Assembly (NCBI GenBank): GCA_029063085.1
Contig: JAIDOW010000073.1
Span: 58,233-122,232, forward strand
Origin: Lachnospiraceae bacterium
GTDB lineage: Bacteria > Bacillota > Clostridia > Lachnospirales > Lachnospiraceae
Direction of reading: 5' to 3'
Length of the DNA stretch: 64,000 nucleotides
Positions 45,875 through 56,490 of this stretch are shown piece by piece. The notes beneath the pieces are model-generated. The model had not been told where the DNA came from, made no database searches, and was given only the letters and a program-made list of their open reading frames with translations. The first letter of the stretch is position 1. Each line of letters starts with the position of its first letter. The translations under genes and the position numbers were made by a program.

Positions 45875-48800
45875 CTATTTGACCTGAATCTTAATACTTG
45901 CTTTCTTTCCACTGCCATCCTTGGCTTTCGCCGTAATCTTTACCTTGCCCTTTGCTTTTGCAGTTACCTTACCCTTAGAATTAACATCCGCAATCTTTTT
46001 ATTACTTGATGTCCATGTCAATTCCTTGCTGATTCCTTTGGATGGGGTAAACCTTACCTTAATCTTCATGGATTTACCGACTTTCAGTGTCTTCTTTCCG
46101 GTCAGCTTGATTTTCTTTACTGCCTGCTTCATAACAGTAATTTTATATACTGCTTTAATACTGTTGTTTTCTGCCGAAACTGCTGTAACCGTTATCTTTT
46201 TCCCTTTAGCGGCTTTTTTGACTGTTACAACACCTTTGCTGTTAACAGACGCATATTTACTGTTGTTTACTTTCCAGACAACCTGCTTATTCGCTGCATT
46301 TTCAGGATACACATTGCAAGTCAGTGCAATCTTTTTGCCCGGTGCGACTTTCTTGGTATCACCAGTAATTTTAAGACCGGATACTTTTATATTTTCGATT
46401 TCTGGCGGTGTTACGATCGGATCTTTTTCTGGCGGTGTTACAACAGGATCTTTTCCTGAACCTTCTTCCTTCACTGTGACCATGCAGGAAGCAGTTGTGC
46501 CGCTTCCATCCTTTGCAACCACTCTGATCTCTGCATTCCCTGCTGTTATACCTGTTACATTTCCGTTCTCATCTACCGTTGCAACCAATGGATTGCTGCT
46601 GATCCACTCCACTTCTTTATTATCTGCCATTTCAGGCTCTATTCCCACAATCTTTATCTGGAACGTTCCGTTTTTATCTATGGTCTTTTGTTCTGTATCC
46701 AACACGATTTTACTGACAAATACCGTTTCCGCAGACTTCTGAACTGTAACAGTACAGCTTCTGGAGTTTCCATCAATCTCTGCCGTAATCACTGCTATTC
46801 CCTCTGATCTGGCTTCCACCTCTCCGTTTTCGTCCACACTTGCGATATCCGGGTTATTACTCTTCCACCTTACAGTATAGGAATCCGCTCCTTCCGGTAC
46901 AGCCGGAATAATAGATAATCTTTCCTTCTCTCCGATCTTCATTGTCATGGAAGTTTTATCCAGTTCAAAATTGATAACCGGACTGTTTACTGTTACTGTA
47001 CAGGAAGCAGATATACCACTCTCATCCTTTGCCATCGCCATGATCACTGCCTGCCCTGCAGCTACACCTGTCACGTTTCCGTTCTCATCTACCGTTGCAA
47101 CCAATGGATCGCTGCTAATCCATTCCACTTCTTTATTATCTGCCGTTTCAGGCTCTATTCCCGTAATCTTTATCTGGAACTTTTCGTTTTTATCTATGGT
47201 TTTTTCTGCGATATCCAATACGATTTTACTTACCAGTATCGGTTCAGGCTTTTCAACCATAACGGTACAGCTTCTGGAAATTCCATTAATTACCGCAGTA
47301 ATCACTGCCGTTCCCCCTGACTTGGCCTCTACTTCGCCGTTTTCATTCACGCTCGCAATATCCTGATTGTCGCTCTCCCACTTAACGGTATAAGGATCTG
47401 CATTTTCCGGTACGACAGAGGTAACAGATAAGCTTTCCCAGTTTCCAATCTGCATTGACACGGCTGTCTTATTCAGAGCAAAACCTGTCACCGGGTTTGA
47501 AACCGTTACTGTACATGTTTTTTCAAATCCACCTGCTCTTACCGTTATCTCTACTGTTCCTGTCTTTTTTGCTGTTACAATTCCTGTATCAGCATTTACT
47601 TCCACAATTCCTTCCTGATTGCTTAAACCATATTCTATATTGCCAATTACCGCTCCTGACGGTTCAGGTATGACCGTAATTGCCTCCTGTTGTCCTGCCT
47701 TCAAATCCATATGCTCCGGTATAACCTGAATCCCCGTTAAATTCTCCGACGTAGGAGCTGTCACAGTCACCATACAGGTATTTACAATCTCCTCTGTTCC
47801 ATTATGAATCTTAGCCGAAATGGTAACCGTTCCCGCATTTTTTGCCGTAATCTTTCCATTCAAAACATCCGCAACCGAAGAGTCACTGCTGCTATATGTT
47901 ACAGTATAGGCATCCGGATTTGCCGGTGTTGTAGATGCAATATAGATTGTCTCCGAGTTACCCGCTGTCAGCGTCACAGTCTCCTTATTCAATGTAAATC
48001 CAGTAAGCGGATTCGCCACTGTCACCGTACAAATTTTCGAAATACCATTGATGACCGCTGTAATTACAGCCGTTCCGGTTCCTGCCGCTTTTACAACACC
48101 GGTATTATCTACCGTTGCAACACCGGAATCACTGCTGCTCCACATTACGGTATAGGTATCCGGATTTGCCGGCGTCGTAACAGGAGTCAGCTTCCAAATC
48201 TCACCGCCTTTTAACGACAACTCCTCCTTATCCAGGTAAAAATCTGTCACAGGATTCGTCACCTTCACCGTACAGGTTCTGGAAATACTGTTAATCTTCG
48301 CCGTAATCACCGCTGTTCCGGTTGATACTGCTGTTACATTACCGTCTTTATCAACTGTAGCAACTTTTGTATCATTACTGCTCCATATATTCTGCCAGTT
48401 CACCGAAAATTCTTCCGCATCTGACGGTGTTATGCTGGAAATTTCAAGTTTAAAACCTTCACCGGTTTTAAGAGCCTTATTGGCTTCATTTAAAGTAAAA
48501 TCAGTGATTACCACAGGTTTTCTCATGATATCTATAGAAACAGTAATTGTAGTGTAATTAGCCTTATCCGAACCTGTATATTCTGCTATAGCCGTAACCA
48601 TCTCTTCAGAAACCAGAGCCTTTGTTCTGTCTGCCTCCTGCCAGATCCATCCGTCAGGCAGTGTCACATCGCCAACCGTTTTTACATTATAATCAGCTTC
48701 CATATATGTATTCGGTGTATTGGAAGGTTTCGCTGCCTTCGTAATCCAAAAAAATTTCGTAAAAGAACCTGTATACTCGGAACTGTCTATTGCCTGAATA

Positions 48801-49762
48801 GTTACAGCAGCCTTATTTGCACTCGTGCTGACATTAATATTATTTTTATATACCAGTTGATAATCTACTCCCTCTGTCAAAGTCTTATCCCCGTCTTTAA
48901 CCGTTATCTTTTCTGACGGTATAATCTCACTTCCAGTATATACATGATTAGACAGGGTATCTGGCGTTATGGTCAACTTATTAATCTCTTTCTTGGGCAC
49001 AGATGTTGTGACAGCCTGAAACGTTATAGGTGTATTCCATTCCGTTGCTTTACTACTTGCCGAAGGTACAAACCAGAGACTCCAGTAGTATGTTTTGCCT
49101 GCCTCCAATTCACCTTCCCAATATTTAGCAGTTTTCCCCGCTGCCTTTGCATTCTCCACATAATTATCACCAAAAAACTGATAACTAATAGCACTTGTAT
49201 CAAATGCAAATTTGTATTTATCAGTTACCTCTGGTGTAAACTTAAAATATATTTTCTCATCTCTCACACTAGCATTTAACTTTTTCAACAATATAGTATC
49301 TGAATAACCATCTGTTAAAGTTATTGTATTTGCATCTGTTCTTTCTACCCAATAATTCGCATATAGCATTAAATCATTTGTTACAGGCTGATCCAGATTA
49401 TACGGTTCACCAGATGGATAAGACCATGGTTTTGCCTCACTTTTATACCACCCTAAAAAATGATATCCTTCCATATAAGGTTCCTCCAGCTTTGGCAATT
49501 CGGAACCCTCATCCATCATCTCCGTAAAATGACAATACCGGTTGTTAATTTCATGACCTTCCTCTGGATCTTTTTTTATTGAATCATAAAACGTAACCCT
49601 GTATGTCGATACACTGGCAGCAAAAGATTCCAACGGCTGTACCAATACCATTAAGGCTACCAGTACCATACTGAGAATCCTATACACCTTTGACCTCCTG
49701 CTCTTATGGGATACCATCAAAACACTATTGCCAGTTCCCCACCTTCTTACCTCATCATCCAT
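45875..49762 (-). CDS. Large secreted multi-domain Ig-like (Big_2) surface protein with an N-terminal InlB B-repeat-like domain
   Basis: Signal peptide region VYRILSMVLVALMVLVQPLESFAAS; GYHFLGWYKSEAKPW...LMLYANYW; many VxWxSSdxxVATVDxxGxVTaxxxGtAxITA repeats. Confidence 0.9.
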   Translation of the reverse strand: MDDEVRRWGTGNSVLMVSHKSRRSKVYRILSMVLVALMVLVQPLESFAASVSTYRVTFYDSIKKDPEEGHEINNRYCHFTEMMDEGSELPKLEEPYMEGYHFLGWYKSEAKPWSYPSGEPYNLDQPVTNDLMLYANYWVERTDANTITLTDGYSDTILLKKLNASVRDEKIYFKFTPEVTDKYKFAFDTSAISYQFFGDNYVENAKAAGKTAKYWEGELEAGKTYYWSLWFVPSASSKATEWNTPITFQAVTTSVPKKEINKLTITPDTLSNHVYTGSEIIPSEKITVKDGDKTLTEGVDYQLVYKNNINVSTSANKAAVTIQAIDSSEYTGSFTKFFWITKAAKPSNTPNTYMEADYNVKTVGDVTLPDGWIWQEADRTKALVSEEMVTAIAEYTGSDKANYTTITVSIDIMRKPVVITDFTLNEANKALKTGEGFKLEISSITPSDAEEFSVNWQNIWSSNDTKVATVDKDGNVTAVSTGTAVITAKINSISRTCTVKVTNPVTDFYLDKEELSLKGGEIWKLTPVTTPANPDTYTVMWSSSDSGVATVDNTGVVKAAGTGTAVITAVINGISKICTVTVANPLTGFTLNKETVTLTAGNSETIYIASTTPANPDAYTVTYSSSDSSVADVLNGKITAKNAGTVTISAKIHNGTEEIVNTCMVTVTAPTSENLTGIQVIPEHMDLKAGQQEAITVIPEPSGAVIGNIEYGLSNQEGIVEVNADTGIVTAKKTGTVEITVRAGGFEKTCTVTVSNPVTGFALNKTAVSMQIGNWESLSVTSVVPENADPYTVKWESDNQDIASVNENGEVEAKSGGTAVITAVINGISRSCTVMVEKPEPILVSKIVLDIAEKTIDKNEKFQIKITGIEPETADNKEVEWISSDPLVATVDENGNVTGVAAGQAVIMAMAKDESGISASCTVTVNSPVINFELDKTSMTMKIGEKERLSIIPAVPEGADSYTVRWKSNNPDIASVDENGEVEARSEGIAVITAEIDGNSRSCTVTVQKSAETVFVSKIVLDTEQKTIDKNGTFQIKIVGIEPEMADNKEVEWISSNPLVATVDENGNVTGITAGNAEIRVVAKDGSGTTASCMVTVKEEGSGKDPVVTPPEKDPIVTPPEIENIKVSGLKITGDTKKVAPGKKIALTCNVYPENAANKQVVWKVNNSKYASVNSKGVVTVKKAAKGKKITVTAVSAENNSIKAVYKITVMKQAVKKIKLTGKKTLKVGKSMKIKVRFTPSKGISKELTWTSSNKKIADVNSKGKVTAKAKGKVKITAKAKDGSGKKASIKIQVK

Positions 49763-55762: not shown

Positions 55763-56028
55763 AAATTCTTGTTTATCTTAAGAGGGACGCTTCCATACGG
55801 TGTTGGTGGCGGACGCAGGAAAAGGGGGCTTATGGTTTCCACGAGAGACACACTTGCGTTCTAACTTCAACGTAGCGGTACATAAGAGGCTATCCTGCAA
55901 GCAGGCTACCCTCTAAGTACCGACGTTTTCAGACGGGTCTCTCTTAGGATAACCATAAGCCCCCTTTTCCTGCTGTGTACCGATACCGTCGTATGGAAGC
56001 TGTTTCCTGATACAATATACAAGAATTT
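55763..56028 (+). ncRNA. Element A: 266-bp multi-stem structured element (candidate ncRNA or structured mobile element)
   Basis: AAATTCTTG...AAGAATTT ends; stems GCTTCCATAC/GTATGGAAGC (55789-98/55991-56000), 23-bp GCAGGAAAAGGGGGCTTATGGTT/AACCATAAGCCCCCTTTTCCTGC (55815-37/55951-73), GAGAGAC/GTCTCTC, CGGTAC/GTACCG, CCTGC-AA-GCAGG. Confidence 0.65.
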
Positions 56029-56179
56029 CTGCCCTGCGGGCGGCACAGCTGGTACTATGTGACTGGTTAGTTATTGGACTTTAAAATATTATTTATTACC
56101 ATCCGGTAAGAAAAGCAATATTTGATAAGAGATTACCTTCAGCCCAGAACAAATATCCCCTGCCCCACCGGAGGCAAAT

Positions 56180-56449
56180 AAATTCTTGTGTTGATTCTAC
56201 CAAAAAACAGCTTTCAACATGAGCTTTTGAAAAGTCTAAGCTGTGGGGAAATACTTTGCTGTTTCTCGGTAGGACTTTCGCACCCATCGGTACTTAACGA
56301 TTGGATGTCACAGACGTCCAAGAGTTTAGTACCGCTATGTGTGCGAAGGAGCGCAAGCGGGGACGAACGAGAACAGCAAGTATTTCTCCACAGCGGACTC
56401 CACCAACCCCTCATGTTGAAAGCGTCCCTAGTAAGCTAAACAAGAATTT
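56180..56449 (-). ncRNA. Element B: 270-bp homolog of element A in opposite orientation
   Basis: AAATTCTTG...CAAGAATTT ends; stems GCTTTCAACATGAG/CTCATGTTGAAAGC (56210-23/56410-23), GCTGTGGGGAAATACTTTGCTGTTTCTCG/CGAGAACAGCAAGTATTTCTCCACAGC (56240-68/56368-94), CGGTAC/GTACCG (56288-93/56329-34). Confidence 0.65.
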
Positions 56450-56461
56450 ATAAAAAAATAA

Positions 56462-56490
56462 TTGACAAAGGGGAAAACTTTGAGTATTAT
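56462..56490 (+). promoter_or_regulatory. Sigma-A promoter of rpsT
   Basis: TTGACA (56462-56467), 17 nt, TATTAT (56485-56490). Confidence 0.8.

Follow-up and report, generated by a model that had tools for sequence, protein, structure and literature searches.

The bodies of MITEs are usually viewed as transposon leftovers. Among small bacterial repeats, the Correia/NEMIS elements of Neisseria are non-coding and intergenic, with terminal inverted repeats and target duplications, and NEMIS, co-transcribed with the adjoining genes, form long hairpins open to cleavage by RNase III (PMC2229807, PMC10969869). REPINs are intergenic, hairpin-forming inverted doublets with a spacer and compensatory changes (PMC3116915), and the CIR repeats of Caulobacter and Brucella have two hairpin arms joined by a linker (PMC2229807).

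The repeat described here lies in a 64,000-nucleotide stretch of Lachnospiraceae DNA (the window). It resembles Correia/NEMIS in being a small non-coding intergenic hairpin repeat with terminal inverted repeats, but its host clade and ends differ, and its conserved multi-helix core with a GNRA mini-hairpin is not described for those elements. With REPIN/BIME elements it shares the inverted doublet with a spacer, and close core pairs found by a strict pattern are divergent; however, its arms are ~270 bp long versus 20-40 bp, RAYT (Y1) transposases are missing from many of its hosts, and its relatives have DDE-type target duplications. CIRs likewise consist of two hairpin arms and a linker, but they are defined by an exposed GANTC motif. 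In IS231/IS4 mobile insertion cassettes and MITEs, as in some relatives of our repeat, IS4-family ends surround non-transposase content. Unlike in those cassettes, the passenger here is a folded non-coding module that recurs on other, unrelated ends, and the window's own ends have no known parent. In the open-access literature we found neither Lachnospiraceae repeats of this type nor a description of one conserved multi-helix module common to MITEs with unrelated ends. Taken as a whole, the locus is likely to be a non-autonomous mobile repeat between gpr and rpsT, with a conserved single-strand-folding core that is shared by several MITE families and acts as RNA.

A two-armed repeat between gpr and rpsT

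An earlier note on this DNA, made from the letters alone, had described two related non-coding elements, A on the plus and B on the minus strand, and gave their end points correctly (Table 1). A and B align in order, with a common start (AAATTCTTGTTTA), a common end (ACAAGAATTT) and the linkers that had been listed for both, and no conserved ORF was seen in either, in agreement with the claimed lack of coding capacity. As had also been observed, their stems differ in sequence yet pair: the P1 helix of B is complementary at 14/14 positions, and the long helix of A was recovered as an inverted repeat. The view of A and B as two separate elements has to be given up, since A, spacer and B recur jointly in the window's own genome, as eight complete copies (687-696 bp) and numerous fragments, of which several lie at contig ends. 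A and B are thus arms of one unit.

Table 1. Features of the repeat unit and its surroundings (window positions)
Feature	Position	Strand	Basis
Whole repeat unit, 687 bp (arm A, spacer, inverted arm B)	55763..56449	.	Recurrence in genome; gpr-rpsT spacer without unit in sister species
Arm A, long hairpin	55763..56028	- (strand with GNRA and tandem G.A)	Fold z -13.5; R2 match
Conserved core of arm A	55831..55954	-	Model R2, 74.7 bits
GNRA mini-hairpin of core A, AC-GCAA-GT on minus strand	55852..55859	-	Sequence; R2 alignment position
Spacer, 151 bp, conserved among copies	56029..56179	.	Alignment of 11 copies
Arm B, long hairpin	56180..56449	+ (strand with GNRA and tandem G.A)	Fold z -10.2; R2 match
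Conserved core of arm B	56257..56379	+	Model R2, 75.0 bits
GNRA mini-hairpin of core B, GC-GCAA-GC	56351..56358	+	Sequence; R2 alignment position
Left terminal inverted repeat of unit (AAATTCTTGTTTATCTTA..)	55763..55795	+	Inverted repeat I1, 83% over 42 nt
Right terminal inverted repeat of unit	56417..56449	-	Inverted repeat I1
Inner end of arm A, ACAAGAATTT	56019..56028	+	Inverted repeat I4
Inner end of arm B, AAATTCTTGT	56180..56189	+	Inverted repeat I5
rpsT promoter-like site, TTGACA-17-TATTAT, just outside unit (context, not part)	56462..56490	+	

The unit sits between gpr (spore protease, minus strand) and rpsT (S20, plus strand), gene names being read from the ORFs. The insertion site was compared across twelve sister species that have a gpr match within reach of rpsT, one of which (G001) carries gpr in the opposite orientation. 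The gpr-rpsT spacer is free of the core in 11 of the 12, and at least ten species lack the unit there. One species (G018) has a different, solo core within this spacer, and another (G022) has a core-less remnant with CAATGTCATT ends. The promoter-like site of rpsT is also present in sister species without the unit. Empty sites and multiple copies together bear out the half of the earlier proposal that spoke of a mobile element. Elsewhere in the window (45875-49762, minus strand), a 1295-aa ORF with repeated Ig-like stretches (SS..ATVDENG.VT) probably encodes a surface protein.

Fold and strand of the conserved core

Each arm is a long hairpin with a variable, self-complementary stem capped by a conserved core of ~120 nt, and each folds far more stably than shuffled sequences (z values in Table 1), with 0/200 shuffles as stable for either arm. 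The core comprises P1 and a three-way junction that includes the GNRA mini-hairpin; P2 has a YU bulge, and the fold is completed by a U.U mismatch, tandem G.A pairs and a variable apical stem. Across 80 diverse sequences, 87% of the cells of this 29-pair structure are paired, versus 32-41% when the partners are slid, and changes on both sides occur at 26 of the 29 pairs. The covariation score is 0.437 versus 0.189 in shuffles, a type of test that sequence relatedness inflates and that is not fully independent here, because the alignment rows were gathered with a first covariance model (R1) already holding 15 of the 29 pairs; the P0, P1 and upper P3 pairs are absent from R1. This model, which originated from a 40-nt match to other species, was built from the opposite strand and has been replaced by R2, in whose alignment arm B deviates at P1. 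The many homologs with compensatory changes support the other half of the earlier proposal, an undescribed structured RNA family.

Of 159 distinct cores, 153 have a GNRA mini-hairpin loop and none has GNYA. An A.G pair adjoins the mini-hairpin in 77 of the 80 sequences, and tandem G.A/A.G forms the internal loop of P3 (with tandem G.A at 49/80 and 55/80). Wobble evidence on the strand is equivocal: over the 29 R2 pairs, summed by hand, G.U and A.C number 97 versus 75 for the GNRA strand, and the 15 R1 pairs favour the opposite strand by 39 versus 14, where a single pair, C.A on the GNRA strand in 19/80 sequences, accounts for 20. Because the unpaired loop motifs decide the matter, we assign the functional strand as plus for B and minus for A. 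The orientation first assigned to the elements is thereby reversed, as the RNA-like loop motifs fall on the other strand.

These loop motifs also bear on the nature of the folded molecule. GC-GNNA-GC mini-hairpins and tandem G.A pairs are stable in DNA too, and the fold could act as single-stranded DNA or a cruciform in transposition or replication, comparable to the REP/REPIN hairpins read by a Y1 transposase. The occurrence of GNRA, with no GNYA in 159 cores, is however an RNA rule, whereas DNA would allow the looser GNNA. With the findings on mobility given below, we regard a role as DNA as unlikely, and the core probably works as RNA rather than as single-stranded DNA.

Some further features of the core deserve mention. 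In L189 and L199 (G016) and L051 (G006), a similar ~60-nt hairpin (ATGCCTGAGACCTTAGCGA..GAGCTTAGTTCGAAG) occurs at the GNRA mini-hairpin, as if a smaller element were nested there, and in L010/L025 of the window's own genome (C80) an ~80-nt insertion (TTGCCACCCAACC..CTACCTTAAAT) lies beside the mini-hairpin of one B arm. An 11-nt tetraloop receptor adjoining P1 was considered and set aside as only a lead, since CCUAAG is found 5' in some copies (including arm A of the window) and the canonical UAUGG partner is absent. The P3 motif was likewise rejected as an independent mini-element, nearly all of its matches looking like core variants.

Transposon ends that carry the core

In relatives, the core is found within units with two other, mutually unrelated sets of ends. 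In G016, it lies within 209-bp units with TAGGCRWTTGCGAAAC ends, with target duplications of 10-14 bp as called and 10-13 bp by eye; this chassis has terminal inverted repeats and target duplications, and an autonomous parent was not found for it. In G006 and a mouse-gut genome, the units end in CAATGTCATTAAGTTAAG and the duplications are mostly 10 bp. This second chassis shares its 18-bp ends and ~10-bp duplications with autonomous IS4-family parents of 1562-1740 bp, so that these relatives combine the terminal inverted repeats, target duplication and autonomous parent expected of MITEs. An exact 10-bp duplication flanks four of six distinct autonomous IS4-family elements, and two of the parent proteins pass the NCBIfam IS4 model NF033592. 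The core is never the parents' own content; one parent (L345) is itself inserted inside a core.

Overall, 45 of 188 testable cores are flanked by a 9-14-bp target duplication together with terminal inverted repeats, versus 1.1 on average, and at most 4, with swapped flanks. We further note mini-units of 53-68 bp that keep the ends and lack the core, at least some of them with target duplications, which indicates that the core is not required for movement.

The window unit has a third set of ends. Its 42-nt terminal arms are 83% complementary, and it is dispersed, non-coding, multicopy and absent from orthologous sites, as expected of a MITE; however, 0/8 complete copies have a target duplication, even with end shifts of 3 bp allowed, and we therefore describe it as MITE-like, not as a proven MITE. 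In the window's own genome no DDE_Tnp_1 gene or IS4 parent was found, the DDE_Tnp_1 search gave no matching transposase for this chassis, the IS4 fragments of close relatives lack the right ends, and the pairs of terminal inverted repeats in the loci examined include no autonomous copy. Because the sets of terminal repeats are unrelated and the IS4 parents lack the core, one folded module appears to ride several transposon chassis. A link to MITEs, which the earlier note had set against its own proposal, thus holds for the relatives, with their terminal inverted repeats and duplications, and leaves the conserved fold unexplained, the parents being without the core. That the locus is a mobile repeat with a conserved single-strand fold is a reading in which we have high confidence.

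The way in which the units move offers a second view of the single-stranded DNA or cruciform alternative. Inverted doublets with a spacer, as in REPINs (PMC3116915), and a chassis without target duplication, as in the window, would be in keeping with it, but the core-less mini-units retain their ends and, at least in some cases, duplications, and Y1 transposases are missing from many high-copy genomes. Y1/RAYT was rejected as a general mobiliser, Y1 being absent from 8 of 18 core-bearing genomes tested.

Several side observations concern the target sites and the parents. The TAGGC-ended units of G016 (L131-L150, L187-L206) tend to insert at AT-rich, -10-like sequences a short way upstream of ribosome sites, and the 10-13 bp that they duplicate correspond roughly in length to a transcription bubble. 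Units with CAATGTCATT ends (L227, L155, L344-L373) often have target sites beginning GTTCAG and are nested in another repeat with GTAACAGT..ACTGTTAC ends. In four autonomous IS4 elements (L346, L356, L369 and L373), the transposase gene is preceded by a strong hairpin in its leader (GGCCGCTCTCGCT..AGCGAGAGCGGCC).

Distribution, genomic context and possible role

With R1, the core was found in 27/27 genomes of the genus, at 1-126 copies each (lower bounds, because the assemblies are mostly drafts), and in 118 of 299 genomes sampled across Lachnospiraceae, corresponding to 117 of 298 genera. With R2, an order-level sample gave matches in 22 of 247 genomes, all 22 in the same family, and a phylum-level sample in 5 of 399, one of them in another family; the E-values of these home-made models are rough. 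The core is thus nearly absent outside Lachnospiraceae. Among the matches listed in a pattern scan, the named hosts are mostly Lachnospiraceae, largely metagenome-assembled genomes from animal or human gut, and tallies of this regular-expression type cover only cores that fit the pattern. In Rfam 15, a comparison that the earlier note had proposed, no family (HEARO, GOLLD, ROOL and group II introns included) reached its gathering score in the window or in cores of 12 relatives, and the plasmid, phage and viral collections gave no match to the element.

Of 188 cores examined, 184 are intergenic, the arrangement of the flanking genes is near background, and the cores are oriented 56:55 with respect to co-directional neighbour genes, half of the insertions thus presenting the other strand to the mRNA. 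The near-background arrangement and balanced orientation argue against a gene-specific switch, and a search for a partner protein adjoining the cores found only ordinary, diverse neighbours. A cis-regulatory RNA tied to one gene was rejected on account of this random orientation and the diverse neighbours. The broader idea that a riboswitch-like or leader element governs the gene next to it draws on the position upstream of rpsT here and on the many G016 copies that lie, by eye, directly upstream of a ribosome site, which would place the core in the leader if the promoter lies beyond the core. With such diverse neighbours, random orientation and one core pair (L119) between convergent gene ends, it was already disfavoured and is very improbable. 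Random orientation without gene-specific context would also suit a fold acting as DNA.

Every close core pair that the strict pattern detected is divergent (11 listed, of which L246 is a single core read on both strands); the covariance-model search shows that tandem core neighbours also exist, and in other species the core mostly occurs solo. Three species share a copy between secY and adk, with an identical offset from secY. This copy has stayed alignable while the adjacent downstream spacer became unalignable, with six pairs showing kept double changes and seven variable pairs broken in at least one species. This copy bears on the possibility that the element bodies are inert, with an unselected core whose stems seem conserved through the shared ancestry of recent palindromic MITE copies. 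High copy number, near-background gene context and random orientation fit inert bodies, as does the 75-97% identity of many copies within one genome; but the secY-adk copy kept its double changes next to a spacer that became unalignable, and the loop motifs and covariation persist over more than 100 genera and different chassis, which makes inertness quite unlikely.

A strand-specific fold in random orientation would also fit a self-contained RNA, and the core might be a stand-alone small RNA gene acting in trans and multiplied by transposons. We identified no promoter common to the units, however, and the promoter-like matches of the window unit are near chance, save the rpsT promoter outside it, so that such a gene seems unlikely. 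We infer instead that the core most likely functions as a folded RNA within transcripts that run through a copy and the genes beside it.

In our preferred reading, a non-autonomous repeat with two inverted arms has been inserted between gpr and rpsT, and its core would be a module common to several Lachnospiraceae MITE families with different terminal repeats, which transposases would mobilise in trans. On this view the repeat is a passenger of transposons, its folded body being kept for its effect as RNA. Within a leader, a copy would introduce a capped, self-contained hairpin; the ribosome site further down would stay accessible, the hairpin may shield the transcript or direct where it is cut, and we propose that insertions near promoters are tolerated for this reason. 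With the arms in fixed divergent pairing, a transcript from either side would contain one copy of the GNRA strand. By analogy with the NEMIS of Neisseria, the core might, tentatively, insulate transcripts. Somewhat more doubtful is the idea that the core is selfish, an RNA module with possible catalytic or protein-binding activity that works at the RNA level and has spread family-wide on several unrelated transposon ends, some copies, such as that at secY-adk, having become fixed RNA elements of the host.

Although abundant in Lachnospiraceae genomes, the repeat matches no catalogued RNA family. An intricate fold with tertiary-type motifs is conserved in over 100 genera of a dominant gut family and on different transposon ends, and such conservation implies selection on the element body itself. 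The repeat thus offers a testable system for a transposon passenger that may act as RNA and for the effects of its hairpins on adjoining genes.
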